Positions 9,020 to 60,186 of a stretch of 60,317 bases of DNA are shown piece by piece. The notes below the pieces were generated by a model. The model was not told the origin of the DNA. It saw only the letters and a program-made list of their open reading frames with translations, and did not search any database. The position numbers were made by a program, and so were the translations under genes. Each line of letters starts with the position of its first letter. Position 1 is the first letter of the stretch. Source of the DNA: Betaproteobacteria bacterium (GTDB lineage Bacteria > Pseudomonadota > Gammaproteobacteria > Burkholderiales > SG8-39); the NCBI GenBank assembly GCA_009693435.1, contig SHXF01000012.1, positions 1-60,317 on the forward strand, given 5' to 3'.

Positions 9020-9055
9020 GTGTGCGTTCCTGCCGCTTGCGGCCTGCGTTTGCGA

Positions 9056-9904: not shown

Positions 9905-9951
9905 CGTGTTTTCCTGAAAAGTTAAGCGGTGATCATGCTGAAAGCTGCAAC

Positions 9952-9980
9952 GCCGGCGCGCTGAGGTGCCGCGCGCCGGC
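9952..9980 (-). terminator. GC-rich hairpin between the VOC and hydrolase genes
   Basis: GCCGGCGCGC (9952-9961) pairs perfectly with GCGCGCCGGC (9971-9980) around a 9-base loop. It lies 21 bases after the stop of the minus-strand VOC gene. No T-run follows on the minus strand, so it is more likely a partial attenuator or an mRNA-stabilising structure between two operon genes than a full terminator. Confidence 0.45.
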
Positions 9981-10000
9981 TGGGTTGCACTACAACAGAC

Positions 10001-10525
10001 CTACTTCGCCGACTGGATTTCCAGTTCTTTGAGGTTGTGCAGATCGGAATCCTCGTCCATCGAGAAACGATCGCCGAAGTCATACATATCGTCGTGCTGG
10101 AAACCGTCGTAGTGCTGGACTTCCCACCAGTTGTGGTCGAGGTCCTCGAGGTAGAACGAATACACGCCGTGCTGGTCCACGACATCCAGCACCTGCTTGA
10201 TCTTGAACTTTTCCTTGTTCGCCTTGGCTTCGCGATGCACGCGATCGACTTCCTCGTGGCTGCCTACGTCCAGGCCCCAGTGGTTGAGCACGTTGCAGGG
10301 ATGGACGGCCGCGCCGACCTCGACACAGACGATGTGGAACTTCAGGCCACAGCGCACCACCATCGCCGGCTTGGCATGGCGCACGCACTCCATGCCGAGG
10401 AACTCCTCGTAGAACTTGCGCGAATCCTTCAGGCTGTAGCACTCCATGGTGCCGTGCGACATCACATACGGCCTGACCACGGAATTCTTGTTCTTCGGTT
10501 CGAATGCTGCGTCGGCAATCTGCAT
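10001..10525 (-). CDS. Single-domain VOC-family protein (putative dioxygenase)
   Basis: A 174-residue protein with one pair of beta-alpha-beta-beta-beta motifs. A metal site can be proposed at H24 (SHGTME), H82 (LNHWGLDV) and E135 (WWEVQ), the His-His-Glu pattern of VOC dioxygenases and glyoxalases. The C-terminal 40 residues are acidic (DDMYDFGDRF and onward), a tail not needed for the fold. It lies between the alpha/beta hydrolase and the iron-sulfur reductase genes in the same direction, so a role in the same ring-cleavage route is likely. The reaction is not identifiable. Confidence 0.8.
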   Translation of the reverse strand: MQIADAAFEPKNKNSVVRPYVMSHGTMECYSLKDSRKFYEEFLGMECVRHAKPAMVVRCGLKFHIVCVEVGAAVHPCNVLNHWGLDVGSHEEVDRVHREAKANKEKFKIKQVLDVVDQHGVYSFYLEDLDHNWWEVQHYDGFQHDDMYDFGDRFSMDEDSDLHNLKELEIQSAK

Positions 10526-10568
10526 TTCAACTCCTCCTAAAGAAAAATGGCCTCGGACTGGCGCACCA

Positions 10569-22402: not shown

Positions 22403-24431
<2,029 letters not shown>

Positions 24432-41111: not shown

Positions 41112-42161
41112 TCAGGCGCGCTCTTCGCGATAAAGGCCCACGCCTTCGCGCACGCCGCGATCGCTGACCAGCAACAGCCTTGCCGTATCGCTGGCTGCCG
41201 TGTGCTGCAGCCACTGCCATTCCGGCACGGTGAAGATGTCGCGCGCCTGCCACTGATGGGTCGCGTCACCGACTTTGCTCGAGCCGCTGCCTTCGATCAC
41301 CACGCACAACTGCGACGCCGTGGAGCGGATGCGCCGGGTGGGCATGCCTTTGGCGATCTCGGTCACGGTGGCGTCCAGGGTCGCAATCACCGCACCGCCA
41401 CGTAGCGGATTGGAGTAGCGGACGGCACGCGATCCGTCCGCCGCGGCCGGCATGGTCGCCAGCAGCGCGAGCACATCCTGCCAGGCGTAGTGGAAACGCG
41501 GCGAGTACGGCACTGCCGGACGATCCGTGACCGGCTCCAGACCGCCGCGCACGAACAATTCGTCCGGCAGCGTGCCGGTGTTCTCCGGATACGCGGCCGG
41601 GCCGTTTTCGCCGCTGTATTCGCCGAAGACGGCATTGGCGTGCTGCACCAGCGGCACGTCGAGTATGTCCACCCAGATCACCGGGCTGTCGCTGTCGTTG
41701 TGGTGTCCGTGCCAGGTCCAGTTCGGCGTGATGATGAAATCGCCGGTGTGCATGGCGCAGCGCTGGCCGTCGACGAAGGTGCCGCCGCCCTTGCCTTCGA
41801 GCACGAAACGCACCGCGGCCGGGGTGTGCCGGTGCGGCGAAGTCTTCTCGCCGGGCATCACGCATTGCACCGCGCCTATCATGTTGGTCGCGGTCGCCGG
41901 CTTCCCCTGCATCGCGGGATTCTTCAGCACCAGCACGCGGTGATCGGCATCCTTGCCGTGCACCGTCTTGACCGTCAGCGCCACCGCTTCCTTCAGCTCC
42001 TCCCATTTCCAGATATGCGAGGGCACCGCCATCGACGGCTCGCGCGTGACGATCTTTTCGTACACTTCCCAGAGCGGAATCAGCGACTGCTTTTCCATGG
42101 CGCCGCGCAACGCGGCTTTTTCCGTCGCCATGTTCTCTGCTGCGGATGCGGGTTGGTTCAT
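41112..42161 (-). CDS. Gentisate 1,2-dioxygenase-like bicupin
   Basis: A 349-residue protein with two cupin domains. The N-terminal one has metal ligands H110 and H112 (SPHRHTPAA) and H151/H153 (WHGHHN), as in gentisate 1,2-dioxygenase and 1-hydroxy-2-naphthoate dioxygenase, which open the ring between carboxyl and hydroxyl groups with Fe(II). The C-terminal cupin lacks a His set and is structural, as usual. A gentisate role would give maleylpyruvate for the GST isomerase at 1009 and the FAH hydrolase at 6521. Salicylate or naphthoate substrates are possible too. Confidence 0.88.
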   Translation of the reverse strand: MNQPASAAENMATEKAALRGAMEKQSLIPLWEVYEKIVTREPSMAVPSHIWKWEELKEAVALTVKTVHGKDADHRVLVLKNPAMQGKPATATNMIGAVQCVMPGEKTSPHRHTPAAVRFVLEGKGGGTFVDGQRCAMHTGDFIITPNWTWHGHHNDSDSPVIWVDILDVPLVQHANAVFGEYSGENGPAAYPENTGTLPDELFVRGGLEPVTDRPAVPYSPRFHYAWQDVLALLATMPAAADGSRAVRYSNPLRGGAVIATLDATVTEIAKGMPTRRIRSTASQLCVVIEGSGSSKVGDATHQWQARDIFTVPEWQWLQHTAASDTARLLLVSDRGVREGVGLYREERA

Positions 42162-42203
42162 CTATCGGCTCCTTGGGACGATACTGCGGATGCAGCCTTA
42201 TTT

Positions 42204-42345
42204 ATCGCACACTTCCTTGTCATCGCACACTTCCTTGTTTTTCTCCCCTCTCCCCCCGGGAGAGGGGCCGGGGGTGAGGGAACACTCGGGGGTTAGGGAA
42301 CACCCGGGTGAGGGAACACCGGGTGACGGCACTCCCGTGCTGAGG
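42204..42345. repeat. 18-bp doublet and a dispersed palindromic repeat copy
   Basis: The gap upstream of the gentisate dioxygenase-like gene contains ATCGCACACTTCCTTGTC twice (from 42204 and 42222). Next comes one reverse-oriented copy of the repeat seen at 4483 (CCCCTCTCCCCCCGGGAGAGGGG near 42245, trailed by GGGGGTGAGGG), then GTGAGGGAACACC-type short repeats up to about 42330. Confidence 0.8.
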
Positions 42346-42349
42346 AAAT

Positions 42350-43417
42350 CTATCGCGCCCGCTCCAATGCAAAGTGCGGCATCACCTTTTCCCCGAACAG
42401 GCGCACCGAGCGTTCCGCATCATGGTACGACATGTCGTTGAAGTTGACCTGCAGCGAGGCGTGGTCCACACCTCCCATGACGCGGTCGAACTCGTGCAGC
42501 TGTTCGATCACATCGGCCGGCGTGCCGACGAACGCGGCATGGTGATGAATTTGCGACTCGAACGTTTCGGCGCGCACCTTCTCTATCATCTTGTCGTAGT
42601 TCCTGTAGTCCGGCGAGATCTGCCTGCCCGCATGTTCCGCCATCGCATCGGCGATGGAATTGAAGTGCCGCTCGATGCGCGGTTTGGCAATGGCGATCGC
42701 CTGCTCGCGGTCCTCGTGGCAATACATGAAGTTGGCGAGCATCAGGCGCGGCTTGTCGGGATGTCCGGCCTTGCGCCACGCCTCGCGATAAATCCCCACC
42801 AGTTCCGCGGGAGAGGAACCCACGCCCGGTATCGCCATCAGCCCGTAGCCCAGAGCACCGGCGCGCTCGAATGACTGCGGCGTGCCAACCGCGGCGATAT
42901 AGAACGCCGGTCGCGGCTGCTGCGTCGGGCGCGGCAGCGAGGTGACATGCTCGAAGCTGTGGAATTTACCCTGGTGGCTGACGTCCTCGCCTTCGAGCAG
43001 CAGGCGCACCTGTTCGATGCCTTCCTCGAAGCGCGCCACGCTCTCATCCATGCTCACGCCGAAATGGCGGAATTCATAGGGCAGGAAAGCGCGCGCGAAG
43101 CCCACATCCAGGCGCCCGCCCGAGATCGCGTCCAGCATGGCGATTTCGCCGGCGAGCTTGAGCGGATGGTTGAACACCGGCAGCAGCGCACCGGTCACCA
43201 GGCGCGCGCGCCGGGTGCGCTGCGAGGCAGCGGTGAGAAAGACGATGGGATTCGGGCTGTAACCGCCCCAGTGATGAAAGTAATGCTCGACGATGCGGAT
43301 GTGGGAGTAACCATAGATGTCGCACCAGTCGACCAGGCGCAACGATTCGTCGAAATACTGCGCCGCCGATCTCTGCGCCGGCTTGACGTCGGGGAAAAAC
43401 TGCATCCCGAATTCCAT
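42350..43417 (-). CDS. Luciferase-like (LLM class) flavin-dependent oxidoreductase
   Basis: A 355-residue TIM-barrel bacterial-luciferase family protein. MEFGMQFFPDV starts the first strand, DISGGRLDVGFARAF lies in the middle (about 95-110) and PAELVGIYREAWRKAGH is a typical later helix. The group includes FMNH2-dependent monooxygenases and F420 enzymes. With free-flavin reductase genes elsewhere in the window (7453, 20237), an FMNH2-dependent monooxygenase is likely. The substrate is not identifiable. The next gene on this strand is the ABC permease upstream, across a tandem repeat. Confidence 0.9.
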   Translation of the reverse strand: MEFGMQFFPDVKPAQRSAAQYFDESLRLVDWCDIYGYSHIRIVEHYFHHWGGYSPNPIVFLTAASQRTRRARLVTGALLPVFNHPLKLAGEIAMLDAISGGRLDVGFARAFLPYEFRHFGVSMDESVARFEEGIEQVRLLLEGEDVSHQGKFHSFEHVTSLPRPTQQPRPAFYIAAVGTPQSFERAGALGYGLMAIPGVGSSPAELVGIYREAWRKAGHPDKPRLMLANFMYCHEDREQAIAIAKPRIERHFNSIADAMAEHAGRQISPDYRNYDKMIEKVRAETFESQIHHHAAFVGTPADVIEQLHEFDRVMGGVDHASLQVNFNDMSYHDAERSVRLFGEKVMPHFALERAR

Positions 43418-43465: not shown

Positions 43466-43555
43466 CTTCCTCCTGCCGGTCTTCCTCCTGCCGGTCCTCC
43501 TCCTGCCGGTCCTCCTCCTGCCGGTCCTCCTCCTGCCGGTCCTCCTCCTACCAGT
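43466..43555. repeat. 15-bp tandem repeat, six units, overlapping a stop codon
   Basis: CTTCCTCCTGCCGGT or CCTCCTCCTGCCGGT units start at 43466, 43481, 43496, 43511, 43526 and 43541 in exact 15-base phase. The stop codon of the minus-strand ABC permease gene (43548-43550) lies inside the last unit. The array fills most of the gap to the luciferase-like gene. Confidence 0.92.
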
Positions 43556-46247
43556 CTTCCTTCACCGCCCTCACGGCGTCACCGCCCATCGCCTGGCGCC
43601 CGCTCGCCACGGCGGTCAGCGTAGAGAGCACCAGCATCACCGTGACGAAGGCAGCCAGCCCCGCCCAGGGCATGTGCACTTCCATGCTCCAGTGGAAGGA
43701 CTGCCGGTTGACCACATGTATCAGCACCAGGCTGATGAGCCAGCCAAGGGCGAGCCCGACCGCCAGGCCGAGCGCGGACACCATCGCGCCTTCGGCCGCC
43801 AGCATCACGCCGATCTGGCGGCGCGTCATGCCCAGATGGCGCAGCACGCCGAATTCCCGGCGACGCGCCAACACCAGCGCACCGAAACTCGCCGACAGGC
43901 CGAACAGTCCGATGAGCACCGCGACCGCTTCCAGGCCGTAGGTGACGGCGAAGGTGCGGTCGAATATCTTCAACGACAGCGCGCGGATCTCGCCGGGCTC
44001 CGCCAGAGCCAGCGCTTCGCCGCCAGGCAGGGCCCGTATCGCGCGCCGCAACTGGACGCGGGCGCTCTGACCATCGCCGTGACTCGACCCACCTTGACTC
44101 GACCCACCTTGAATCGACCCACCTTGACTCGATCCACTGTGACTCGATCCACTGTGACTCGATCCACCTTGCCTCGATCCATTTTGTGCGCTGTCCGCTG
44201 TCAGCCAGAACGCCGCGTCGTTGGCCAGCGCGTCGCCGGTCAGGTCCCGGTACACGCTGCGCTCGATCAGGATCGCCCCCTGCTGGCGCACGTAATCGCG
44301 CCACACCCCCGCGACGAAAAACGGCGCCTGCTTGCCCGCCAGCGGCACGCTTACGGTCTGCCCCGCCCGCCAGCCGTAGAGGTCGGCAACGCCTTCGGTG
44401 ATCCATGCGGACGGTGCAGCACCCGCAGGACGCTTGACCTCGGACAGCAGCGGCACCACCGCGCCTGCGCCGGACTCGTTGATGTCGCGCGCGATGACCA
44501 GCACCGGCGGACGATCCTGGGCCAGCAAAATGCGCTGGCTGCGCATGAAATCGACGCGGCGCACGCCGGGCAGCGCCGCCAGGCGCGCCTGATCGGCCGG
44601 CGTGAGGAATGTGGTTTCGCTGCCGCCCGCCCCGCGCAGGTACAGGTCGGCCGGCAATACCTGTTCCAGCCACTGATCGAGCGAAGTACGGAATGACGCC
44701 ACCATGATGGCCATGGATACCATCAGCGACACGCTGGCCACACTGGCGGCGAGGCTCACCATGGTCTGACCCGGCGCGCCGGCGATGCTCCGTACCGCGA
44801 GCATCAGTTCGGGCCCGGCTTGCATCACCCGGCCCGCGCCGCGAGCCGGGCGAAACTCCGAAATTGCGCGCGACAGCGCGCCGAACACCAGCAGCGACAG
44901 GCGCGGCATCAGCACGATGCTGCCGATCAACAACAGGGCTATGGCGACATAGCCGGGCAGCGGCAGGCCAGCGACGGGCCCGGCCTGCGTAAGCACCGCA
45001 CCCAGCGCCAGTAGCGTCATTCCCGGCCATGCCGGAGCCAGACGCTCGAACAATCGCTGCTCGTCCCCTGCCTTGAGCGCGTGCGCCGGCGGGGTGCGCC
45101 CGGCCTCGAACGCAGCGGCAACGCTACCCGCGACGGTCACCGCAATGCCCAGGCAGAAAAACAACAGCGCGGACCAGGGCTCAAAGCGCGCCTCGGGCGC
45201 GAGCCCTCGGAAATGTCCGGCGCCCAGGTCGGCGCCGAAGCGGGCAAGCGCCTCGCTGGCGAGCAGATAGCCCGCGCACAGGCCGAGCGCGGCGCCCAGC
45301 GCGCCCAGCGCCACGCTCTCCCCCAATGCCTGGCGCAGCAAGGCGCCGCGCTTCACCCCCAGCACGCGCAACAATGCGAGATGGGGGCGCCGCCGCACCA
45401 CCGCCAGCGACTGCGTGGAAAACACCAGCAGCCCGCCGGTGAACAGCGCCACCAGCGCGAGCACGTTGAGATTGACGCGATAGGAACGCGACAGTCCCGC
45501 CGCGCGATCGATGCTCGCCTGCGGCGGTTCCAGCCACACGCCCGCCGGCAGCAGCGGGCTCACCTGCGCCATGAAGCGCGCTGCATCGGCGCCGGGGCGC
45601 AGGCGCAGATCGATGCGGTTCACCCGGCCCAGGCGCCCGGACGCCGCCTGTGCCGCAGCGATGTCGAGTACCGCCAGCGGTTGGCGAAAGGCAGCCCCCG
45701 AAAGCAGGCCGGCAATCCTGAACTGCGTCTCCGTAAGGCCCAACTGGACCAACAGCACATCGCCTGCCGCCACCTCCAGCAGAGCCGCGGCGGACTCCGA
45801 CAGGAATACGCGATCCGGGCGCAGGTAGTCGAGCGAATCGAATGCGCCGCGCACCGCCTCGGCCGCCGCATATCCCGGCTGCAGCGCCGCGGCGCGAAAA
45901 ATGTCGATGCCGACGGCCTTCAGCGTTTCGTGCGCCTTCGCCCCCGGGGCACGCACGCGAATTTCCAGTTCGATCGCAGGGCTCGCCAGCGCCACTTCCG
46001 GACGTGCCACCAGCAAGGGATATAACGATTCATCGAAACCCGCGCGCGGACCGAGCACTGCCAGGTCCGCGTCGCCGGCGAGGGTCTGCACCGCGCGCGC
46101 CATTTCGCCTATGGCCACGGCATTGATGAGTTGCACCGCGTAGCCGAGCGCCACGCCGAGCGCAATCGCGGCGATGGACAGCGCGAGCCGCCCCTTGTAT
46201 TGCGCGAGCGGCGCGAACAACAGGCGGCGCCGGATGGCGGCGATCAT
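43548..46247 (-). CDS. FtsX-family ABC transporter permease (AttF/LolC/MacB type)
   Basis: An 899-residue inner-membrane protein. An N-terminal helix and a large periplasmic domain are followed by two FtsX domains (around 270-380 and 770-890) with a second periplasmic domain between them; about eight to ten helices in all. It pairs with the ATPase encoded seven bases upstream. Such permeases extrude or mobilise lipids, lipoproteins or small molecules, and with a CrtC/AttH-like periplasmic protein (36053) form the Att-type set. A 35-residue Gly/Ser/His/Gln repeat (about 688-722) interrupts the second periplasmic domain, coded by a 15-bp tandem repeat. Confidence 0.9.
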   Translation of the reverse strand: MIAAIRRRLLFAPLAQYKGRLALSIAAIALGVALGYAVQLINAVAIGEMARAVQTLAGDADLAVLGPRAGFDESLYPLLVARPEVALASPAIELEIRVRAPGAKAHETLKAVGIDIFRAAALQPGYAAAEAVRGAFDSLDYLRPDRVFLSESAAALLEVAAGDVLLVQLGLTETQFRIAGLLSGAAFRQPLAVLDIAAAQAASGRLGRVNRIDLRLRPGADAARFMAQVSPLLPAGVWLEPPQASIDRAAGLSRSYRVNLNVLALVALFTGGLLVFSTQSLAVVRRRPHLALLRVLGVKRGALLRQALGESVALGALGAALGLCAGYLLASEALARFGADLGAGHFRGLAPEARFEPWSALLFFCLGIAVTVAGSVAAAFEAGRTPPAHALKAGDEQRLFERLAPAWPGMTLLALGAVLTQAGPVAGLPLPGYVAIALLLIGSIVLMPRLSLLVFGALSRAISEFRPARGAGRVMQAGPELMLAVRSIAGAPGQTMVSLAASVASVSLMVSMAIMVASFRTSLDQWLEQVLPADLYLRGAGGSETTFLTPADQARLAALPGVRRVDFMRSQRILLAQDRPPVLVIARDINESGAGAVVPLLSEVKRPAGAAPSAWITEGVADLYGWRAGQTVSVPLAGKQAPFFVAGVWRDYVRQQGAILIERSVYRDLTGDALANDAAFWLTADSAQNGSRQGGSSHSGSSHSGSSQGGSIQGGSSQGGSSHGDGQSARVQLRRAIRALPGGEALALAEPGEIRALSLKIFDRTFAVTYGLEAVAVLIGLFGLSASFGALVLARRREFGVLRHLGMTRRQIGVMLAAEGAMVSALGLAVGLALGWLISLVLIHVVNRQSFHWSMEVHMPWAGLAAFVTVMLVLSTLTAVASGRQAMGGDAVRAVKEDW
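44081..44185. repeat. 15-bp tandem repeat coding a pentapeptide repeat in the ABC permease
   Basis: Seven units of GACTCGACCCACCTT-type sequence in exact phase (44081 to 44185). Read on the minus strand they give seven five-residue repeats such as QGGSS and HSGSS inside the permease. The frame stays open whatever the copy number. Confidence 0.95.
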
Positions 46248-49152: not shown

Positions 49153-50403
49153 TCAGGCAGCGCGGCGTTTCGACCGCGCTGAGGATTTCGACGCCGGCTT
49201 GCGCACCGGCTTCCGAATTCCGGCCTTTGCCGCACGCGGCCAAAGCTGCTTTGTCGCAAGCCGTGCGCCCTCCACCAGGGAGCGCAGCTTCGCCCACTGA
49301 ATGCTCGGGTGCACGCGCGAGAGGAACGGCCCCTGCTGCGCGAATCCGCAATCGGTTCCGGCCATGATGTTGTCGCGGCCCACCAGCTTCGCGAGGCGCA
49401 CGATGCGCTCGGCGACAAGCTCCGGGTGCTCGACGATGTTGGTCGCATGGGTGATGGTCCCGGGCACCAGTATTCGTCCGGGAGGCAGCTTGACGTCCTT
49501 CCACACCTGCCATTCGTGCTCGTGGCGCGGATTGGCCATCTCGATCAGATAGGCGCCGGCCTTGATCCTCAGCATCAGGTCGACCACGTGCTTCGCCGGC
49601 ACGTCATTCGAATGCGGTCCGTTCCAGCTGCCCCAGCAGATATGGAAGCGCACCTTCTCTTCGGGAATGCCCTTGAGCGCGTAATTGATGACTTCCACCT
49701 GCTGCGCCGCCCACCTGCGGTAGTCTCTCAGCGTGCCGGGCGGCACGATCACGTCGTACATGCTCGGAAAATACGAGTCGTCGACCTGCAGCGTGATGCC
49801 TGCGTCCGCGATTGCGCGATATTCCCCGCGCAAAGCGTCCGCGATGGCCTGCAGCGCGTCATCCTTGTTCGCGTAGAACTCGTCCTTGCGGTCGGGAGCC
49901 ACGCTCGCCGGCGACACCGCGCACATGAAAGCGCCACCGGTCTTCACCCTGGCCAGGGCCGCCTTGAACATGCGCACATCCTCGCGGATTGCTGCGGGCT
50001 TGTAGGAGATCGGTCCCGTCACCGTCCAGCCGCGCATTCCGGCCGTCGGCACTGAGGCGTCGTATTCCTTGTAAAACTCGGCGAAGTCGCGGCGGTCCTT
50101 GCCGGTCACACTCATCGGCATGCCCGATTCTTCGACCGGGCGCCGCTCGAACCCTGCCATGCGAAACAGAATGTAACGCGACCAGGTGATGGGCTTGCCG
50201 AGTTCGCCGTCGCTGACGATGTCGATGCCCGCTTCGGCCTGGAGTCGCACGATTTCGGCAACGGCATTCTCCAGGGTGTCGGTGTATTCCCGGTCGCTCA
50301 CGGCCTCGCCGCGCTCCTTTCTTTTCATCAAATCGATGAACGCCTGCGGGCGTGCAAGGCTGCCGACGTGGGTGGTCAGGATGCGTTTGGCGTTTGCGGG
50401 CAT
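49153..50403 (-). CDS. MetE C-terminal-like (cobalamin-independent methionine synthase II) family protein 1
   Basis: A 416-residue TIM barrel of the core-MetE/YxjG family. The zinc site is complete: H254 and C256 (FHICWGSW), E288 (LIEMAN) and C352 (GTDCGF). The N-terminal half of true MetE is lacking, as in all members of this group. Methyl-group or thiol chemistry is expected; methionine synthesis itself is not proven. The last 30 residues are Lys/Arg/Ala-rich, like a nucleic-acid-binding or histone H1-type tail, which is unusual. It is followed upstream on the same strand by a relative at 50417 and is convergent with the NYN gene. Confidence 0.88.
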   Translation of the reverse strand: MPANAKRILTTHVGSLARPQAFIDLMKRKERGEAVSDREYTDTLENAVAEIVRLQAEAGIDIVSDGELGKPITWSRYILFRMAGFERRPVEESGMPMSVTGKDRRDFAEFYKEYDASVPTAGMRGWTVTGPISYKPAAIREDVRMFKAALARVKTGGAFMCAVSPASVAPDRKDEFYANKDDALQAIADALRGEYRAIADAGITLQVDDSYFPSMYDVIVPPGTLRDYRRWAAQQVEVINYALKGIPEEKVRFHICWGSWNGPHSNDVPAKHVVDLMLRIKAGAYLIEMANPRHEHEWQVWKDVKLPPGRILVPGTITHATNIVEHPELVAERIVRLAKLVGRDNIMAGTDCGFAQQGPFLSRVHPSIQWAKLRSLVEGARLATKQLWPRAAKAGIRKPVRKPASKSSARSKRRAA

Positions 50404-50416
50404 GGCGCTGCTCCGC

Positions 50417-51547
50417 TCAGATCGGATACAGGTCGCGGAGAACCTTCACCGCCGCGACGTGATCCTCGATGACGTTCTTCATGATCATGTCCACCGGCGC
50501 CGGCCCCTTGTGTGCAAGAAGGCTGCCCGGGCGTTCAGGGGCTCTGCCGAAACCGCATGGCGCGGCGATGCCGAAGTCCTTGAGATACCTGCCTGCGAGG
50601 GCGAGTTGACGGCGCAGGCCGTCGGCGCCGTGCAGGTGGTGAATTGCACCCAGGTACACGCGGGCGTCGCCGGCCTTCAGCCTTGCAAGGGGCGCAAAGA
50701 ATGCTTCGTCGGCCGAGCCCAGGGTCGGAAAGTGCAGGAACTCGACCTTGCGGCCCGAGGCGACAACCGCTGCATTCAGCAGCATGACGGTGCCCTCCAG
50801 GCTGGCCGGCTGGCGGGAAGGCCAGCCGTTGAGCGTGCCGAAACAGGAGTGGTAGCCCAGCTCGACTTCCTTCGGAATATGCGGGCAGATGTCTTTCGCG
50901 GGCGCCATCAGGCGTTCGGCTTCGCGCTCGGCCGCGGCCGGCCCCTCCTTTTCCATCATTGCCTCGAGATAGCGGTTTTCCACCGCGAGGTCCCACTGGA
51001 TCGCGAGTTCCGAGGGTGGGATTTTCTGCACCATCTTCCCGATTTCGTCCCGGAATGCCCGGGTAACGCCGGGCACGATGCGCGCGTGGTCGGCGGCATC
51101 GGGAAAGAATGACGTGACGGCGCTGTAGGTCAGCGGCAGGCAGACCTGGAATTTCACGTGCGCGGGAATGACGCCCTCCTTCTTCAGGGTCTTGAAGACG
51201 AAGTAGGAATTGATGGCGTCCCGTGTGTAGCCGAGGCGCCAGCCGGGATCGCCGAACTGCACCTCTGTCACGCCGGGCTTCACGCGAAAATTGAACTCAT
51301 CGTGCAGACCGCGCGGCTTCCAGCGCTCTACGCCGCCTTCGTCGGGTGCCGGCCGCTTGATGGTTTCGAGATCCTGGTGACCGTTCAGCACGCGATAGGC
51401 GAAACCGTCCACCCAGTACTGGCGCTCGGCGATCTCGCCGTCCGGAATGTAGGCCAGCCATTGGCCCAGCGGGCCAGCGAGCGCGCGGAACACCTCCTCG
51501 GCGGTCTCCATGGGCACGCTTCCGACCAGAAGCAGTTCCTTGCTCAT
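50417..51547 (-). CDS. MetE/UroD-superfamily barrel with altered zinc site (family unknown), copy A
   Basis: A 376-residue protein I cannot assign to a known enzyme. It has the MetE-like start KELLLVGSVP and IPDGEIAER (34-42), and later motifs in MetE order: H233-x-C235 (YHSCFG), then H272 (EFLHFP) where MetE has the zinc Glu, and C331 (PCGFGR). So a zinc site is likely, but with His in place of Glu. GGAGG directly precedes the ATG. It shares this pattern with the gene at 52870 and lies 13 bases from the MetE-like gene downstream. Function unknown. Confidence 0.78.
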   Translation of the reverse strand: MSKELLLVGSVPMETAEEVFRALAGPLGQWLAYIPDGEIAERQYWVDGFAYRVLNGHQDLETIKRPAPDEGGVERWKPRGLHDEFNFRVKPGVTEVQFGDPGWRLGYTRDAINSYFVFKTLKKEGVIPAHVKFQVCLPLTYSAVTSFFPDAADHARIVPGVTRAFRDEIGKMVQKIPPSELAIQWDLAVENRYLEAMMEKEGPAAAEREAERLMAPAKDICPHIPKEVELGYHSCFGTLNGWPSRQPASLEGTVMLLNAAVVASGRKVEFLHFPTLGSADEAFFAPLARLKAGDARVYLGAIHHLHGADGLRRQLALAGRYLKDFGIAAPCGFGRAPERPGSLLAHKGPAPVDMIMKNVIEDHVAAVKVLRDLYPI

Positions 51548-51679
51548 GATTCCTCCCGTCAAGGACATTCAACATGCATGCAGGCGAACGATATAACGAC
51601 TAGCATAACCCCGCACGATTAGCATAACGCCGGCTTCGGCGACGCATTTCGCATATTTCGAATAATCAAGGAAGAGATC

Positions 51680-52801
51680 ATGCCGGCAACAAAACACAAC
51701 CCACCCTTTCGCGCCGAACATCTGGGCAGCCTGATCCGTCCAGCGCGGCTCATCAAGGCGCGCGAAGACTGGCGCGCAGGAACGCTCGCGCGCGAGGCGC
51801 TGCGCGCAATAGAGGACGAATGCGTGCGCGACGTGATTGCGCTGCAGGAACGCGCCGGCATGCAGTTCGTCTCCGACGGTGAATTCCGTAAATCGGGCTG
51901 GCGCGACCTGCTGATAGACGCGAGCGACGGATTCAGCAAGGAACTGCAGCCCAGCGATTTCACCTTCACGGAATTTTCCGGCGAGCGCCGCAGGGGCGTG
52001 TCCGTGCCCGATGTGGTCGCAACAATCCGCCGCCGCGAACCGCTTGCGGCCGGGTTCGATTTCGTCAGCAAGCTGACGAAAAAAATCGTCAAGGCGACAC
52101 TGCCCGCCCCCTCGGTCAACCAGTTCTTCCGCGGCGACCGGATGCTGCAAAACGGGCCTTACAAGGGTGATCGCAGCGCGTATCTGGCGGATGTAGCGAC
52201 CATCTACCGCCAGGAAATTGCCGATCTCGTTGCGCAAGGGTGCACCTATCTGCAGATAGACGACGTGCCGAGCGCGGTGCTGTGCGACCCGCGGAACCAG
52301 CAACTGGTGCGCGATCGCGGCGAGGATCCGCAGCAGTTGATCGACCAGTATTTCGCACTGTTCAACGACGCCCTGCGCGAGCGGCCCGCCAACATGACCG
52401 TCGGTGTGCACCTGTGCAAGGGCAACATGGGATACGGACAGGGCAGCGGCGACTACGAGCCGGTGGCCGAGCGCCTATTCCAGAAACTCGATGCCGACGT
52501 GTACTTCCTCGAATACGACGACGAGCGCGCCGGCGGCTTCGAGCCGCTGCGCCATCTGCCCAAAGATCGAAGCGCGATCCTCGGCATCATCAGCACCAAG
52601 CTGCCGGCGCTGGAACCCGCGGACGACGTGTGCCGGCGCATCGAACAGGCATCGAAGTATGTCGACCTCGACCGCCTCGGCTTGAGCCCGCAGTGCGGCT
52701 TCGCATCCACCTACAACACCACGCGTTTTACCGAGGACGACCAGGAGCGGAAGCTCACCCACCTCGTGGCAATTGCGCAAAGAGTCTGGGGTCAGGCGTA
52801 G
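51680..52801 (+). CDS. MetE C-terminal-like (YxjG-type) family protein 2
   Basis: A 373-residue core-MetE barrel. FRAEHLGSLIRP (10-21) is the family start and VSDGEFRKSGW lies at 64-74. The zinc site is complete: H244 and C246 (GVHLCKGN), E278 (FLEYDD) and C339 (SPQCGF). AAGGAAGAG precedes the ATG. It is divergent from the unknown barrel at 50417 and followed 68 bases later by the second unknown barrel, so four related proteins lie together, two by two. A methyl- or thiol-transfer role is the family expectation; the substrate is unknown. Confidence 0.88.
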   Translation: MPATKHNPPFRAEHLGSLIRPARLIKAREDWRAGTLAREALRAIEDECVRDVIALQERAGMQFVSDGEFRKSGWRDLLIDASDGFSKELQPSDFTFTEFSGERRRGVSVPDVVATIRRREPLAAGFDFVSKLTKKIVKATLPAPSVNQFFRGDRMLQNGPYKGDRSAYLADVATIYRQEIADLVAQGCTYLQIDDVPSAVLCDPRNQQLVRDRGEDPQQLIDQYFALFNDALRERPANMTVGVHLCKGNMGYGQGSGDYEPVAERLFQKLDADVYFLEYDDERAGGFEPLRHLPKDRSAILGIISTKLPALEPADDVCRRIEQASKYVDLDRLGLSPQCGFASTYNTTRFTEDDQERKLTHLVAIAQRVWGQA

Positions 52802-52869
52802 GGTTCGCGCCAAAAAGAAGAGGATACTGCACCTCTTGTCGAAAGCCGCACTGAAAGAGGTGTAGCGCC

Positions 52870-53913
52870 ATGCCGGGTCACAATATTTATCTGGTCGGCA
52901 GCGTGCCGCTGGCCGACGCGCAACAGGTGTTCGAGACGGTGAGCAACGCGCTGGGCTCGCGGCTCAAGCGCATCCCCGATGGCGAGACCGGCGAGCGCAT
53001 CGACTGGATCGGCCACCTGGAACGCGTCTTCGCCGCGAACGCCGCCTTGATGAAATCCGATGAGATCTTCCGTGTGCACGCGGACGCCAAGGGCTGGCAC
53101 CGCTACCAGCTGCGACCCGGCAAGACGGTCAAGGACCTGCATTTCGACAACTTGCTGTATGCCGACACCGCGATAGCGTCGTACGCGGTGTTCAAGCGCC
53201 TCAAGGCGGACGGGAAAATCCGCGCCGGCACGCGCTTTCAGGTCGACCTGGTGCCCGCCCACTCGGTGCTGTGGCTGTTCCTCGGGGACGAGTTGCATGT
53301 TCCCGCCGATCCCCTATACAACGAGGCGCTGAAGCGCGAGATCGACAGGATCGCGCTGGCGATTCCCCACCGGGAACTTGCGATCCAGTTCGACGTCGCC
53401 TCGGCGGTGTTCGCGCGCCTGGAGCGCGCGCAGGTGAGCGACTACGGGCGCACCAAGGAAGAGACGCAGGAGACCTTCAGCAACATCCTCGTCGACCTCG
53501 GCAATCGCGTGCCCCCGGACATCGAACTGCTGTACCACCTGTGCTACGGCGACAACAACCACAAGCACGTGGTCGAGCCCAGCGACATGGGCGACATGGT
53601 GGAATTCTCCAATCGCGTGTCGCAGCGGATCGCCCGACCTGTCAACCTGGTCCACATGCCGGTGCCGCGCAACCGTGCCGACGATGCCTATTTCGAACCG
53701 CTGCGCAGGCTGAAACTGCGGCCGGAGACCGAACTGTGCCTCGGCCTCGTCCACTACACCGACGGACTGGAAGGCACGCGCAAGCGCCTGGCAACGGCGA
53801 ACAAATACGCCAGCGGATTTTCCGTAGGCACCGAGTGCGGCCTGGGCCGCCGGCCGCCCGAGACCATAGCGGCGCTGCTGAAAATCCACTCGGAGATCGC
53901 CGAGATCGACTGA
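52870..53913 (+). CDS. MetE/UroD-superfamily barrel with altered zinc site (family unknown), copy B
   Basis: A 347-residue relative of the gene at 50417. NIYLVGSVPL (5-14) and RIPDGETGER (34-43) match its N-terminus. The presumed metal site is H223-x-C225 (YHLCYG), H262 (NLVHMP) and C323 (TECGLGR). The spacing is nearly identical to copy A (39 residues between the two His; 59 to the second Cys). AGAGG precedes the ATG. It follows the MetE-like protein 2 gene and is itself followed 94 bases later by an ABC import operon on the same strand. No family name can be given. Confidence 0.78.
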   Translation: MPGHNIYLVGSVPLADAQQVFETVSNALGSRLKRIPDGETGERIDWIGHLERVFAANAALMKSDEIFRVHADAKGWHRYQLRPGKTVKDLHFDNLLYADTAIASYAVFKRLKADGKIRAGTRFQVDLVPAHSVLWLFLGDELHVPADPLYNEALKREIDRIALAIPHRELAIQFDVASAVFARLERAQVSDYGRTKEETQETFSNILVDLGNRVPPDIELLYHLCYGDNNHKHVVEPSDMGDMVEFSNRVSQRIARPVNLVHMPVPRNRADDAYFEPLRRLKLRPETELCLGLVHYTDGLEGTRKRLATANKYASGFSVGTECGLGRRPPETIAALLKIHSEIAEID

Positions 53914-54007
53914 CGCAGGATCAGGCTATCGCGGCGGCGGACGCCCGCGATTGCGATACGTGCTAAAAACCCGCGTGTACAGATGCAAACCACCCCAAGG
54001 AGAGGTC

Positions 54008-55027
54008 ATGCTGAAACGAAGCTTGTTGTCGAAATCGCTCGTCGCGCTGTGCGTCGTCGGCGCGTTTGTCGCGGGTGCGGGCAGCGCTGCCGCCGAGCCG
54101 GTCAAGCTGCGCGCGGGATGGGTGCTGACGCCTGCCTCGCTGCTGCCGCTGATGCTGGAAAAGCAGGGCCTGGCGAAGCACAACGGCGTGTCCTACCAGC
54201 TGGAGCCCGTCCGGGTACAGGCTTCGCCGCTGCAGATCACGGGCCTCGCCAGCGGTGACCTCGATATCGGCACGCTCGGCTATTCCAGCCTGAGCTTCGC
54301 CATCCTCAACGCCGGCCTGAAGGACATCAAGGTGCTTGCCGACGAGATCCAGGACGGCTACCAGGATTACGCCTCCTTCAAGTTCGTGGTGAAAAAGGAT
54401 TCGCCCATGCAGAAGGTTGCGGACCTGAAGGGCAAGGTGCTGGCCGTCAACGGCATCGGCACCGGCGTCGACATGGCCATGTCCGCCATGCTGCGCAAGC
54501 ACGGCCTGCAGAAAAAAGACTACACCACCCTGGAGATCGGCTTCCCCAACATGAAAACGGTGCTCGCCGAAGGCAAGGCCGACATGGTGACGGCGGTGGT
54601 GCCCTTCAGCGAGGATCCCGAGTTGCAGGCCATGAGCCGCATCCTCTTCAGCTCCAAGGATTCCATGGGCACCTCCGCGCTGTCGTTCATGGTGGCGCGC
54701 TCGGGGTTCATCGCCAAGAACCGCAAGGCGCTGGTCGATTTCATGGAGGACTACCTGCGCGTGGTGCGCTGGTATTCCGACCCGGCCAACCACAAGGAAG
54801 CCGTGGAGATCGTGTCGCGCGTGACCAAGATCCCGCCGGAGCGCTTCGACAGCTGGCTGTTCACGAAAAAGGATTACTACCGCGACCAGGACGGGCTGCC
54901 CAATCTGGTCGACCTGCAGCGCAATATCAAGGTGCAGAAAAGCCTGGGGCTGATCAAGGCCGACGTGGATGTGCCGAAGTTCGCCGATCTGAGCCTGGTA
55001 AAAGAAGCCGCCAAGCGGCTCAAATAA
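54008..55027 (+). CDS. ABC transporter substrate-binding protein (NMT1/TauA-like)
   Basis: A 339-residue periplasmic binding protein. The signal peptide is 1-28 (AGSAAAEP), followed by KLRAGWVLTPASLLPLML and the two-lobe pattern of NMT1/SsuA/TauA receptors for sulfonates, nitrate, taurine or pyrimidine precursors. The ATG chosen has GGAGAGG upstream and gives a clean signal peptide. It heads an operon with an ATPase and two permeases, downstream of the MetE-like barrels. The ligand is unknown, but the link with an isochorismatase-fold amidase and the barrels may point to it. Confidence 0.93.
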   Translation: MLKRSLLSKSLVALCVVGAFVAGAGSAAAEPVKLRAGWVLTPASLLPLMLEKQGLAKHNGVSYQLEPVRVQASPLQITGLASGDLDIGTLGYSSLSFAILNAGLKDIKVLADEIQDGYQDYASFKFVVKKDSPMQKVADLKGKVLAVNGIGTGVDMAMSAMLRKHGLQKKDYTTLEIGFPNMKTVLAEGKADMVTAVVPFSEDPELQAMSRILFSSKDSMGTSALSFMVARSGFIAKNRKALVDFMEDYLRVVRWYSDPANHKEAVEIVSRVTKIPPERFDSWLFTKKDYYRDQDGLPNLVDLQRNIKVQKSLGLIKADVDVPKFADLSLVKEAAKRLK

Positions 55028-55187: not shown

Positions 55188-56006
55188 ATGCCGAAACAAG
55201 CACAGGAGAAACATTTGCCGGGCGCATCGCAAATACGCATTGACGCAGTAAGCCATGTCTACCGGCCGCCGCGAGGCCGGGAAGTGCTGGCGCTCGACGA
55301 GATTTCGCTCGAGGTTCGCGAACGCGAGTTCATCGCGCTGCTCGGTCCCTCGGGCTGCGGCAAGTCCACGCTGCTCTACCTCATCGGCGGATTCCTGCAG
55401 TCCGCCAAAGGGACGATCACGGTCAACGACAAGGTGGTGACGGGACCGGGACGGGATCGCGGCATCGTGTTCCAGCATTTCGCGCTGTTTCCCTGGAAAA
55501 CGGTGCGCAACAATGTGCTCTACGGCCTGGAGAAAGCCAACCTGCCGCGCGCCGAGTGCCTGGCTCGGGCGCAGAGCTTCATCGACCTCGTGGGATTGCA
55601 CGGCTTCGAGGACAGCTACCCCTCGCAACTGTCCGGCGGGATGAAGCAGCGCGCCGCCATCGCCCGCACCCTCGCCTTCGATCCGGAAATCCTGCTGATG
55701 GACGAGCCCTTCGGGGCGCTCGATTCGCAGACCCGCAGCCTGATGCAGACCGAACTGCTCGCCATCTGGCGGCGCTCGCCCAAGACGGTGATATTCGTCA
55801 CCCATGACGTGCAGGAAGCCGTCTATCTCGCCGAGCGCGTGGTGGTCATGTCGGCGCGGCCGGGCAAGGTCAAGGCCGTCATAGCGTCGGACTTTGACCG
55901 CGGCAACCCGGGCCTGTTCAAGACCAAGGCCTTCGTCGAGAAAGTGGACGAAATCTGGACCCTGGTGCGCGAGGAAGCCCTGAAGGCGCAGGGGCAACGC
56001 GCGTGA
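55188..56006 (+). CDS. ABC transporter ATP-binding protein (TauB/SsuB-like)
   Basis: A 272-residue importer ATPase. Walker A is GPSGCGKST (53-61), the signature LSGGMKQR (148-155), Walker B and D-loop LLMDEPFGALD (169-179), and the switch His in FVTHDV. The Q-loop region FQHFALFPWKTV is typical of nitrate/sulfonate/taurine systems. Its stop overlaps the first permease gene by four bases. It completes the importer whose receptor is encoded 160 bases upstream, across the 20-bp repeat. Confidence 0.95.
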   Translation: MPKQAQEKHLPGASQIRIDAVSHVYRPPRGREVLALDEISLEVREREFIALLGPSGCGKSTLLYLIGGFLQSAKGTITVNDKVVTGPGRDRGIVFQHFALFPWKTVRNNVLYGLEKANLPRAECLARAQSFIDLVGLHGFEDSYPSQLSGGMKQRAAIARTLAFDPEILLMDEPFGALDSQTRSLMQTELLAIWRRSPKTVIFVTHDVQEAVYLAERVVVMSARPGKVKAVIASDFDRGNPGLFKTKAFVEKVDEIWTLVREEALKAQGQRA

Positions 56007-56746
56007 AAGACGCCCTGCTGCGTTACCTGCCGCTCGCGATACTCGCGGCGGCGTGGGAAGCGGCGGCGCGCTTCAAATTGATCGGTGGCGGCGCCCTGCC
56101 TCCGCTCACCGAGGTGTTTGCCGCCTGGCTGCGCCTCACCGAAGACGGCGAACTGTGGTCGCACGCCGCCTCCTCGCTCTATCGAGCCGCCACCGGCCTC
56201 GCCCTGTCCATTGTGCTGGGCGGCGCGCTCGGCATCGCCATGGCCTGGTGGCGCCCCGTGAACACCTTCATGAGCCCGGTGGTAGAGATGCTTTATCCGC
56301 TGCCGAAATCGGCGCTGATACCGGTGACGGCGTTGTGGCTGGGCTTCGGCGACGGCTCCAAGATCCTGGTGATCTTCCTCGCCTGCATGCTGCCGGTGAC
56401 CCTGGCGGCATTCAATGGCGCGCGCGGCTGCGAGCAGGTGCTGGTGTGGTCGGCGCGCAGCATGGGCGCGAGCCGGCTGCGCACCCTCTGGGACGTGGTG
56501 ATACCGGCAGCGATGCCCGACCTGCTGAACGGCGTGCGCACCGCCCTCGCCTTCTCCTTCGTGGTGCTGGTGACCTCCGAATTGCTGGTGTCGCGCAAGG
56601 GCCTCGGTTACCTCATCGGCTTCCTCGGCGAGAGCGGCGCCTACGACGCCATGTTCGCCGTCGTGCTCACGGTGGCGCTGCTCGGTTTTGTCGCCGACCG
56701 CCTGTACATGCTGGGGACGCGCCGGGTGTTGCAATGGCGGGAGTAG
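56003..56746 (+). CDS. ABC transporter permease 1 (TauC/SsuC-like)
   Basis: A 247-residue permease with about six helices. The EAA-type cytoplasmic loop near the middle (ARSMGASRLRTLWDVVIPAAMPDLLNG) contacts the ATPase. It begins at an ATG or near equivalent overlapping the ATPase stop (GTGA context) and overlaps the second permease by 13 bases. Two different permease genes in one such operon suggest a heterodimeric channel; single-permease systems are more usual in this class. Confidence 0.93.
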   Translation: MKDALLRYLPLAILAAAWEAAARFKLIGGGALPPLTEVFAAWLRLTEDGELWSHAASSLYRAATGLALSIVLGGALGIAMAWWRPVNTFMSPVVEMLYPLPKSALIPVTALWLGFGDGSKILVIFLACMLPVTLAAFNGARGCEQVLVWSARSMGASRLRTLWDVVIPAAMPDLLNGVRTALAFSFVVLVTSELLVSRKGLGYLIGFLGESGAYDAMFAVVLTVALLGFVADRLYMLGTRRVLQWRE

Positions 56747-57564
56747 CGCGCACGCCCGCATCGCTGCCCGAAGTCGCGCGGGCGGCGGCGAACCTGCTCG
56801 GCCGCGCCTCGGTGCGCTGGGCCTCGGTGATCCTGATCATCATCGTGTGGGAAGGCGCGGCACTCAGCGGCGCGGTGACCGAATTCATGCTGCCGCAATT
56901 CAGCACGGTGCTGGAGCGCATCTGGGATGACGCGGTGTCCGGGGAGTTGCCCGGCCAGATCGTGCTCACCCTGTATCGCTGCCTGAGCGGCTTCGCCATC
57001 GCCGCGGTCGCCGGCGTGGTGCTGGGACTCGCGATACCGCGCAGCCGCGGCGTGTCCTGGTTCCTCGATCCCGTCATTTCGGTTGCGCTGCCGATGCCGA
57101 AAATCGTGTTCCTGCCCATCGTCACATTGTGGCTGGGATTCGGCGACGTCTCGAAAATCTTCATGGTGGTGATCGACTCGGTGTTTCCGGTGATCACCGC
57201 CACGGTCGCCGGCACGCAGGCGGTGGAAAAGGAATTGCTGTGGTCGGCGCGCAGCATGGGTGCGAGCGAGCGCCAGGTGTGGCGCGAAATCGTGCTGCCC
57301 GCGGCGCTGCCGCAAGTGCTCACCGGGCTGCAGGTGGCGCTGCCGATCGCGCTCATCGTCGGCATCGTCACCGAGATGCTCACCGGCGCCGACGGCCTGG
57401 GCGGCACCATGATCCAGGCGTCACGCATCGCCGATTCGCCGGGCGTATTCGCCGGGCTGCTGGAGATGGGGGTGATCGGCTATTGCGTGCTCAAGGCAAT
57501 GAGCGCGCTCCGGCGCCGGCTGCTGCTTTGGCACCAGGAATCGCTGGCGCCGACCACGGCGTAG
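56734..57564 (+). CDS. ABC transporter permease 2 (TauC/SsuC-like)
   Basis: A 276-residue permease with about six helices and its own EAA loop (ARSMGASERQVWREIVLPAALPQVLTG). The start MAGVARTPASL lies inside the 3' end of permease 1, so translation is coupled. The two permeases are similar, mainly across the EAA loop. A longer open frame upstream in this phase covers permease 1 and is a shadow. The isochorismatase-fold gene follows after 190 bases. Confidence 0.93.
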   Translation: MAGVARTPASLPEVARAAANLLGRASVRWASVILIIIVWEGAALSGAVTEFMLPQFSTVLERIWDDAVSGELPGQIVLTLYRCLSGFAIAAVAGVVLGLAIPRSRGVSWFLDPVISVALPMPKIVFLPIVTLWLGFGDVSKIFMVVIDSVFPVITATVAGTQAVEKELLWSARSMGASERQVWREIVLPAALPQVLTGLQVALPIALIVGIVTEMLTGADGLGGTMIQASRIADSPGVFAGLLEMGVIGYCVLKAMSALRRRLLLWHQESLAPTTA

Positions 57565-57754
57565 CGATAATTCTTCAAGATTTATGCGACCGGACAGCCA
57601 ATCGGCGGTAGCCTACGAGCATATCGCTTATTGTTTTTTGAATAGCAGCACGCGGCAAGAAAGAGCCGGGCCCGCATGACACTACCTTTGCATCATCACC
57701 AGTCGCAGGTTGGCGGTGAGCGCGGCAAACCCCAACATGAACAGGAGGAGCAAC

Positions 57755-58441
57755 ATGACTGCATCGGATTCCATTTCAGTTTCCGCACGGCCCGAAGCCA
57801 TGTCGCTGGATCCGCAGCACGCCGCGGTGATCGTCGTCGACATGCAGAACGGCTTCGCCAAACCGGGCGGTTTTCTGGAGCGGCGCGGCATGGACATTTC
57901 GGGCGCGCCGGCGGTCATAGCCAACTGCAGCCGCGTCATCGCCACGGCGCGCCAGCGCGGCATGCGCATCATCCACCTGCAGATGGGATGGCATCCGCAG
58001 ATGTACGAGATGGGCGCGCCGCGCGGCGGCAACTGGCACAAGTCCATGGCCTGGCGCTTCATGCGCGATCGCCCGGAGAACGCGGGCACCGCCATCACCC
58101 GCGGAACCTGGGACTACGCGATCATCGACGAACTCGCGCCGCAGCCGGGCGACATCGTCATCCCGAAAACGAAACAGAGCGGTTTCTTCGACACCAACCT
58201 CGACTCGGTGCTGCGCAACCTCGGCATCAGGACGCTGGCCTTCGTCGGCATCGCCACCAACGTCTGCGTGGAAGCCACGCTGCGGGACGCCTCGTACCGC
58301 GACTACCTGTGCCTGCTGGTGGCGGATGCCAGCGACGCCACCGGCCCCGACTATGTCAAGCAGGCGACGATGTTCAACGTCGAGATGATCCTCGGCTGGG
58401 TCACCACCACCGACGAATTCGTGGCGGCGCTCGCGCCATAA
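57755..58441 (+). CDS. Isochorismatase-fold cysteine hydrolase (RutB / N-carbamoylsarcosine amidase-like)
   Basis: A 228-residue cytoplasmic hydrolase. The catalytic triad is D29 (VVDMQNGF), K138 (IPKTKQSGF) and C171 (ATNVCVEAT), with the ATNVC cis-peptide motif. True isochorismatase lacks the Cys, so an amide or carbamoyl hydrolase (RutB, nicotinamidase, N-carbamoylsarcosine amidase type) is indicated. AGGAGGAG, an ideal ribosome-binding site, precedes the ATG; upstream ATGs lack one. It follows the ABC importer, so it may act on the imported compound. Confidence 0.92.
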   Translation: MTASDSISVSARPEAMSLDPQHAAVIVVDMQNGFAKPGGFLERRGMDISGAPAVIANCSRVIATARQRGMRIIHLQMGWHPQMYEMGAPRGGNWHKSMAWRFMRDRPENAGTAITRGTWDYAIIDELAPQPGDIVIPKTKQSGFFDTNLDSVLRNLGIRTLAFVGIATNVCVEATLRDASYRDYLCLLVADASDATGPDYVKQATMFNVEMILGWVTTTDEFVAALAP

Positions 58442-58617: not shown

Positions 58618-60186
58618 TTACTTCTTGCCCGGCGGGATCCCGTCGTCGAACGCGCTCATCACCGGCGGCGTGCCATCGAGTCCGAATTCCTGCCAGCGGC
58701 TCGCCACGCGCTCGTAGACCTTTTTGTCCAGCATGGTGGCCTTGGGGAAATCCTTCAGGTGGCGATGCGGCTTGCAGGCGTCGATCAGCGCTTTGGATCC
58801 GTAGGGACGCAGTTCGCGCGGCACCTGGCTGGGGTCCAGGCCGGTCGACCAGGTGTTGCGCAGGATGTCGATGTTCTCGATCGGATTGCATCGCGTCGAG
58901 AGCGCCCACAGCACCTGGTTGAAGTCGGTGGGATCGACATCGTCGTCGACTGCGATGATCCACTTGGTGTAGTACGCCGCGGCCGGACACTGCGCGGTGA
59001 GCGACAGCACCTGCGAGACATGGCCGGCGAACTGCTGCTTCAGCGACACCACCACCATGCCCCAGCCCGAGGCCGCGGCCGGATGCGCATATACGCCGCG
59101 GATGCCGGGCACGCCCAGCAGGTCCAGGCTGTCCCAGATGCGCGCCGAGCGCATGATGGCGTAGTAGGCGCCGATTTCGCAGGCCGGATAACGCGCCATC
59201 AGCGATGCGGTGAGGATGGGGTTGCGGCGCATGTGCAGCGCCTTCACGTCGATCACCGGCTGCGGCGCGCGCTCGTTGCCGTAGTAGCCGGTGAATTCGC
59301 CCAGCGGCCCCTCCATCTGGCGCTCGTCGGGATGCAGGTAACCCTCGATCACGATCTCGGCATGCGCCGGTATCGGCAGGTCCACGACCACGCCCTTGGT
59401 CAGTTGCACCCCTTCGCCGAGCAGGCCGCCCGCCACATCCAGTTCCGATTCCTGCGAGCCGAACACCTGCGCGCCCACCATGAAGAGAATGGGATCGATG
59501 CCGAAGGCGACCACCACCGGACAGGGCGCTTTCTTCGCCCACCAGGCATCGCGGTCCAGGCCGCCGTGCTTGCCGGGCGAGGTGTACATGCCGACCTTGC
59601 GCGGCCCGTGCAGCATCTGGCGGTACACACCGACATTGATGCGCGAGGTATCGGGGTCGCGGGTGAAGGTGATGTCGCCGGTGCCGATGTAGCGCCCGCC
59701 GTCGCCGGGCCAGAATTTCGGCACCGGCAGCCGCGTGAGGTCGATGTCCTCGCCGGTCAGCACGATTTCATTCACCGGCGCCTTGTCCGGGGCGATCTCC
59801 ACCGGGGCAATCTTGCGGCCCATGATGCGGCGGCTCTCGGTGATGAGCTCGGTGGTCGAGAGCGTCGGATCCAGTCCCACCGATATCGCATAGCGGCTGG
59901 CGCTCGCGCCCAGCATGTTGATGAGCACCTGCCCCTCGGCACGCTCGGTGAAATTCGAGAACAAGAGCGCCGGCGCGTCTTCGCGCTGCGCCGCCATGCA
60001 GGCGATGGCGGACAGTTCCTGATCCAGATCGACCCTGGCATCGATGCGCTTGAGTTCTCCTGCCGCGTCCACCCGCTGCAGCCAGTCGCGCACATCGCGC
60101 GGCGGGCGAGCACCGGCAGTTTCGTTGTCCGCCAGTTTCCTGCCGGGGCTTACGCGCACAACTTCTTTTGTCGAGGTCTCTTCCAT
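58618..60186 (-). CDS. UbiD-family (prenylated-FMN) decarboxylase
   Basis: A 522-residue decarboxylase of the UbiD/Fdc1 superfamily. The catalytic trio is R189 (NVGVYR), E292 and E297 (MEGPLGEFTGYYG), as in R173/E277/E282 of Fdc1, and N184 sits in the Mn/prFMN-binding position. It reversibly decarboxylates aromatic or unsaturated acids using prenylated FMN. No UbiX prenyltransferase gene is in the window, so that must be elsewhere. It is convergent with the amidase gene. Length is normal; the first 30 residues are not conserved. Aromatic-acid substrates are likely given the window. Confidence 0.93.
   Translation of the reverse strand: MEETSTKEVVRVSPGRKLADNETAGARPPRDVRDWLQRVDAAGELKRIDARVDLDQELSAIACMAAQREDAPALLFSNFTERAEGQVLINMLGASASRYAISVGLDPTLSTTELITESRRIMGRKIAPVEIAPDKAPVNEIVLTGEDIDLTRLPVPKFWPGDGGRYIGTGDITFTRDPDTSRINVGVYRQMLHGPRKVGMYTSPGKHGGLDRDAWWAKKAPCPVVVAFGIDPILFMVGAQVFGSQESELDVAGGLLGEGVQLTKGVVVDLPIPAHAEIVIEGYLHPDERQMEGPLGEFTGYYGNERAPQPVIDVKALHMRRNPILTASLMARYPACEIGAYYAIMRSARIWDSLDLLGVPGIRGVYAHPAAASGWGMVVVSLKQQFAGHVSQVLSLTAQCPAAAYYTKWIIAVDDDVDPTDFNQVLWALSTRCNPIENIDILRNTWSTGLDPSQVPRELRPYGSKALIDACKPHRHLKDFPKATMLDKKVYERVASRWQEFGLDGTPPVMSAFDDGIPPGKK

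Follow-up and report, generated by a model that had tools for sequence, protein, structure and literature searches.

What might be done by enzymes that keep most of the zinc site of the methionine synthase MetE and that match no named family? The question is raised by four adjacent genes in a 60,317-nucleotide stretch of DNA from a Betaproteobacteria bacterium (GenBank assembly GCA_009693435.1, contig SHXF01000012.1; hereafter the window). The genes are termed A (49153..50403) and B (50417..51568), both minus-strand and separated by 13 bp, and C (51680..52801) and D (52870..53913), both plus-strand and separated by 68 bp; an intergenic region of 111 bp (51569..51679) lies between the divergent B and C. 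The four open reading frames (ORFs) have a third-position GC of 0.79–0.87 and encode proteins of 347–416 aa, each a single barrel from which the N-terminal folate-binding barrel is absent. An earlier note on this DNA had described four MetE-superfamily barrels of two types, arranged as two divergent pairs, and the coordinates and the paired layout proved to be as it said. By sequence comparison, B and D fall in a large clade, unnamed and here called H-type, that is sister to the MetE catalytic barrel; in its aligned members the His-x-Cys and Cys at the MetE zinc positions are invariant and the Glu ligand, on good support, is predicted to have been lost.

The two types differ at the metal site. 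A and C are MetE-like single barrels that exceed the PF01717 cut-off of 21 bits (A with 47.1 bits, E 2.6e-12; C with 53.7 bits, E 2.6e-14); C also passes the NCBIfam model NF005085 (316.2 bits, cut-off 313) and A falls on the MetE-like side of the tree. Both keep all four ligands, His, Cys, Glu and Cys (H254-x-C256/E288/C352 in A and H244-x-C246/E278/C339 in C). This set of four is incomplete in B and D, which carry H233-x-C235, H272, H303 and C331 and H223-x-C225, H262, H295 and C323, respectively. The zinc-pattern residues numbered in the earlier note were recovered exactly in A, C and D; those of B hold from a start seven codons downstream and not in the listed 383-aa ORF, where they read H240/C242/H279/C338, with the further His at 310. 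The shorter 376-aa start (MSKELLLVGS), with which a database copy of B (P0121) also begins, is used throughout.

The extent of this pattern was assessed in loci collected around H-type genes. A species-genome scan gave 106 encoded relatives of B, the best 80 of which were taken as loci, and 60 regions around better-scoring matches to a model of D, from 22 genomes, were added; with one duplicate excluded (L088, identical to L001), 139 loci covering 1.96 Mb were counted. An alignment of 147 rows was made from B and D plus 145 of the 150 further H-type ORFs in the loci, with domains of 300 residues or fewer dropped and the two genes of one contig counted twice (L001 and L088). His233, Cys235 and Cys331 are present in all 147 rows, while at position 272 there are 146 His and one Gln. 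The column that MAFFT and HHalign align with the Glu665 ligand of MetE contains Pro (129 rows), Ala (17) or Thr (1). The residues compared as homocysteine-binding in MetE were Ser433, Glu484 and Asp599, residue roles being taken from PMC7857596 for Escherichia coli MetE (753 aa) and from PMC539065 for Thermotoga maritima MetE. Their counterparts are Ser10 (146/147) and Glu38 (147/147), both aligned with MetE by the two programs, and Asp186, which is Asp in 141 rows and Glu in six. His303, in loop 7, is His in 127 rows and Leu in 16; it was considered as the direct equivalent of His672, the proton-donor candidate of T. maritima MetE, and rejected, since both alignments set it two residues before that His, opposite the Asp of the DIHSP motif.

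The fold is predicted to be the MetE-type TIM barrel, by model for B and by homology for D. An AlphaFold model of full-length B and its structural comparison bear out the superfamily assignment, the best structural match being 3rpd (MesD of Shewanella). The B/D profile gave a single weak match in the PDB (1ypx, E 0.013) and the sequence of B gave none there. In the full model, strand 5 spans residues 229–233 and ends at H233, and strand 6 spans 270–274; in T. maritima MetE, according to PMC539065, the first His ligand likewise terminates strand 5.

Whether H272 takes the place of the lost Glu can be argued both ways. By eye, the motifs VYFLEY (C), VEFLHF (B) and VNLVHM (D) set the His on the Glu, and replacement of Glu by H272 as the fourth ligand is possible. 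The alternative, the chances of which we judge to be evenly balanced and which is compatible with every other reading below, is that H272 would sit deeper in the barrel and serve as an acid or base of the second shell, while His, Cys and Cys would hold the metal together with water or substrate. MAFFT and HHalign both put H272 at Glu665 minus 2, a position in the strand that would lie on the same face and one layer deeper. These alignments may nevertheless slip, because B and D have a longer loop following strand 6. A model of a fragment of B cut at residue 277 (52 rows; predicted local distance difference test, pLDDT, of 92) pulls in two directions. Its strand 5 spans 229–234, one residue beyond H233, and its strand 6 spans 270–272 and finishes at H272, which argues against a second-shell role. 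In 3bq5, 3bq6 and 1t7l the end of the fragment matches residue 645 of T. maritima MetE, an offset of three from Glu642; if ungapped, Glu642 would therefore correspond to residue 274, which favours that role, and a gap is conceivable because the rows for C. albicans end anywhere from 682 to 691. Foldseek gave no match for the fragment at E 0.001.

The assignment of B and D to a clade of their own rests on several lines of comparison. At E 0.1 neither has any match in Pfam or NCBIfam, and thus neither reaches the PF01717 cut-off, in keeping with the earlier note, which could name no family for them; the two barrel types that it distinguished form separate clades in the tree. B and D are 34% identical over their full length (E 2e-47), while A and C share only 24% identity. 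Among the matches listed, the closest relatives reach 87% identity to B and 75% to D, and since each has much closer relatives elsewhere, a recent tandem duplication does not account for B and D. The best named relatives of B are in betaproteobacterial assemblies.

The family is large. Among 8,000 scored candidates, 5,847 D-related clusters were found, and the 120 that were listed are all named 'hypothetical protein' or unnamed. The D model finds between one and 12 H-type matches per genome, 144 in total, in 32 genomes that were picked for holding a relative of B, and PF01717 matches in the same genomes number 1–43. Large expansions were seen, with 35, 41 and 43 PF01717 matches in genomes G011, G020 and G026 and 35 UbiD matches in G027. 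Plasmid records add two distant matches to B and six to D, every one annotated 'hypothetical protein'. Wider genome sampling, in which at most five to six candidates per genome were scored in the rows shown, found B relatives in 2/385 genomes at E 1e-130 and 2/300 at E 1e-60, all four known already. In the families of genomes G001, G002 and G005, B relatives at E 1e-100 were present in 7/98, 7/39 and 5/7 genomes; the loci from both samplings (L142–L167) were left out of further analysis. Among the papers listed by searches of the open-access literature, none indicated in its title or the opening of its abstract that it deals with the H-type family.

What, then, might these proteins catalyse? 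We give an even chance to the reading that B and D are metal-thiolate alkyl- or methyltransferases with an imported donor. A metal, most likely zinc, would be held by His, Cys and Cys, perhaps with the extra His, and would activate an amino-acid thiol, homocysteine or similar; a small imported compound would then donate an alkyl group, methyl or another, to the activated thiol, with A and C acting as core-MetE-like barrels of related chemistry in the same cluster. Thiol activation on a metal is suggested by retention of the His-x-Cys and Cys and of the Ser/Glu/Asp set. Methylfolate bound as in MetE would be an unlikely donor because the N-terminal folate-binding barrel is absent. The copy number, together with some catabolic neighbours such as those on a Bosea plasmid, would point to catabolism of varied compounds and not to methionine supply. 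The family as a whole looks catabolic, being multi-copy in many of the genomes searched and usually without an adjoining MetE-like gene.

Gene neighbourhoods bear on this reading from both sides. In several of the examples examined, not all, H-type genes have importer genes and genes for ring attack or C-S lyases as neighbours. In the Bosea plasmid the run containing the H-type gene includes ring hydroxylase, VOC, cupin and FAH genes. L082, which among the loci holds the closest relative of D (70% identity), has an adjoining SsuA-like binding protein 54% identical to the product of 53951..55027 in the window, a MetE-like gene at 2.4 kb, a PatB-family C-S lyase (387.3 bits, cut-off 340) and a nicotinamidase-type hydrolase above cut-off. 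A MetE-like gene lies within 2.5 kb of an H-type gene in nine of the 139 loci (L002, L004, L005, L026, L057, L082, L085, L111 and L141), where 2.5 would be expected from 513 PF01717 matches in 138.6 Mb (nominal Poisson P 0.001); no additional MetE-like ORF came up in the loci with a broader model started from E. coli MetE. Such P values are merely indicative, because the background genomes differ somewhat from those of the loci and related loci are not independent. Among the nine, L005 is a counterpart of the A–B pair (61% identity to A, 60% to B), L002 and L004 have more distant A genes flanking B on both sides, and L085 has a homologue of C (68% in the main piece, with a frame that looks interrupted) two ORFs from a D-clade gene, with another H-type gene between them.

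H-type genes also pair with each other. In eight loci two lie within 2.5 kb (0.7 expected, nominal P 8e-7), with partners 30–45% identical, a count that is inflated by tandem duplication and in which three of the eight loci are orthologous. L095, L097 and L103 hold orthologous tandem pairs, 45% identical within the pair and 92–97% identical between genomes, which suggests a kept two-subunit or two-step unit.

Several observations weigh against the transferase reading. In the remaining 130 loci no MetE-like gene lies as near as 2.5 kb, so that the co-occurrence of the two barrel types, raised as a check in the earlier note, holds as proximity beyond expectation and fails as an obligate two-type system. 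UbiD, which had been read as part of the pathway, is not clearly above background and is not supported as a member of the system: eight genes occur in seven loci (by tblastn with the window UbiD in L051, L087, L090, L111, L122 and L130, to which an iterated local model adds L052), against 4.8 genes expected in 1.96 Mb from a background of 342 PF01977 matches in 138.6 Mb (nominal P 0.12). MTHFR lies near an H-type gene in two loci (0.3 expected from 60 MTHFR matches, nominal P 0.035), a weak count by which a folate link is neither excluded nor shown. Three of the four plasmid members examined are in settings without a catabolic theme: directly after the pst phosphate operon (pstSCAB) in Arthrobacter (L168), by a peptidase gene and transposases in Rhodococcus, and directly after sugar ABC permeases in Streptomyces (L171). 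At the site itself, Asp186 aligns with MetE Asp599 in HHalign and elsewhere in MAFFT, two loops near the site in the full model of B (239–243 and 336–347) have a pLDDT below 50, and the extra His, should it stand two residues lower than the Glu, may fall short of the metal.

The folate link had looked promising from individual genes and was set aside, given the count above. In L003 an MTHFR gene adjoins a B relative (8932–11128), and in L026 (3946–8841) an MTHFR domain occupies residues 752–995 of a 1631-aa protein near an H-type/MetE-like pair. The 601-aa protein P0239 fuses MTHFR and B in one ORF; its MTHFR half begins at profile position 77, and the fusion could be a frameshift artefact.

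Three other accounts of function were weighed against the transferase reading. The main rival, somewhat unlikely, is that B and D join a thiol to a non-methyl electrophile, forming or cleaving a C-S bond on a xenobiotic with a C-S lyase downstream. Epoxyalkane:coenzyme M (CoM) transferase (EaCoMT), a term found in none of the papers listed by one literature search, is an example of such thiol-electrophile joining. The retained residues of Zn-thiolate type and the many paralogues per genome would fit, as would L082, where the PatB-family gene is accompanied by a gamma-glutamyl-GABA-hydrolase-like gene (under cut-off), but PatB occurs in that locus only and none was identified among the 20 window ORFs scanned. 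A more ambitious version of the transferase reading, unlikely as a whole, would make His-Cys-His-Cys a rebuilt site, with both the loop-7 His and the fourth ligand shifted down the barrel by one layer; thousands of unannotated bacterial enzymes would then transfer methyl or alkyl groups without folate from imported catabolites to an amino-acid thiol, sometimes with MetE-like partners, in a general and undescribed route of demethylation or dealkylation. That B and D are additional folate-independent methionine synthases for methionine supply only is very unlikely, for although the homocysteine-binding residues are largely conserved and methionine synthases are the named structures and families closest to B and D, the numbers of H-type and PF01717 matches in the 32 genomes go far beyond methionine need and some loci (L082, the Bosea plasmid) look catabolic.

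Downstream of D, the window encodes on the plus strand an ATP-binding cassette (ABC) importer, comprising an NMT1/SsuA-like substrate-binding protein (53951..55027; PF09084 E 2.6e-14; SsuA_fam 110.9 bits, under the cut-off of 163.5), an ATPase (55188..56006; PF00005 E 1.8e-31) and two permeases (56003..56746, PF00528 E 3.6e-18; 56746..57564, PF00528 E 2.1e-22). The start of the second permease is approximate, the ORF listing giving a longer frame from 56053 in which the match covers residues 319–490. There follow a RutB-like amidohydrolase of isochorismatase fold (57710..58441, plus strand; PF00857 E 1.1e-42; RutB 281.3 bits, under the cut-off of 377.95) and, on the minus strand, the UbiD-family decarboxylase (58618..60186; PF01977 E 1.1e-64; TIGR00148 273.6 bits, above the cut-off of 244.85). 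Elsewhere in the window, 22403–24431 holds ring-cleavage genes for 2-hydroxymuconic semialdehyde dehydrogenase (TIGR03216) and 3-hydroxyanthranilate 3,4-dioxygenase, both above cut-off. A gentisate-1,2-dioxygenase-like cupin (283.6 bits, under cut-off) adjoins a luciferase-like flavin monooxygenase at 41112–43417, about 6 kb from the barrels, and the translation of 43548–46247 is a long transporter-permease-like protein with a Gly/Ser/Gln/His-rich repeated insert, encoded by a short DNA repeat.

Compared with known systems, B and D share with the MetE catalytic barrel (PF01717) the TIM-barrel fold, the His-x-Cys and Cys zinc ligands and the Ser/Glu/Asp homocysteine residues; they differ from it in missing the Pfam and NCBIfam models, in being without the Glu ligand, in the fixed His on strand 6 and in having no N-terminal folate barrel. 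MtaA-type CoM methyltransferases and UroD gave a lower Z than MetE in the structural match to B, and at E 0.1 neither B nor D matches the Pfam UroD family (PF01208). The core methionine synthases MesA–MesD (PMC7857596), a group defined by making methionine from homocysteine without folate, are single barrels of a size similar to B and D. The zinc-site variants given in the available part of that paper have Glu665 replaced by Asp (MesB) or Gly (MSBL-1 MesC), Cys726 by Asn (two MesB) and Cys643 by His or Tyr (MesC); MesB-like proteins of Chloroflexales have FSHG, YCDQ or YREQ in place of HCEC. In FSHG the His stands at the Glu column with the other three ligands lost, unlike B and D, and a His in that column with His, Cys and Cys all kept is not among the variants in that part of the paper. 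What appears to be new here, judged by sequence, is a zinc-site variant in which Glu is lost, His, Cys and Cys are kept and a fixed His stands nearby, outside Pfam and NCBIfam at the thresholds used. Naming its reaction would annotate many genes, as many as 12 in a single one of the 32 genomes searched. The Glu ligand of MetE has been tied to an unusual zinc inversion (PMC539065), and a large natural family that lacks this Glu and retains the remaining three ligands and the residues for homocysteine would let this mechanism be tested by comparison.

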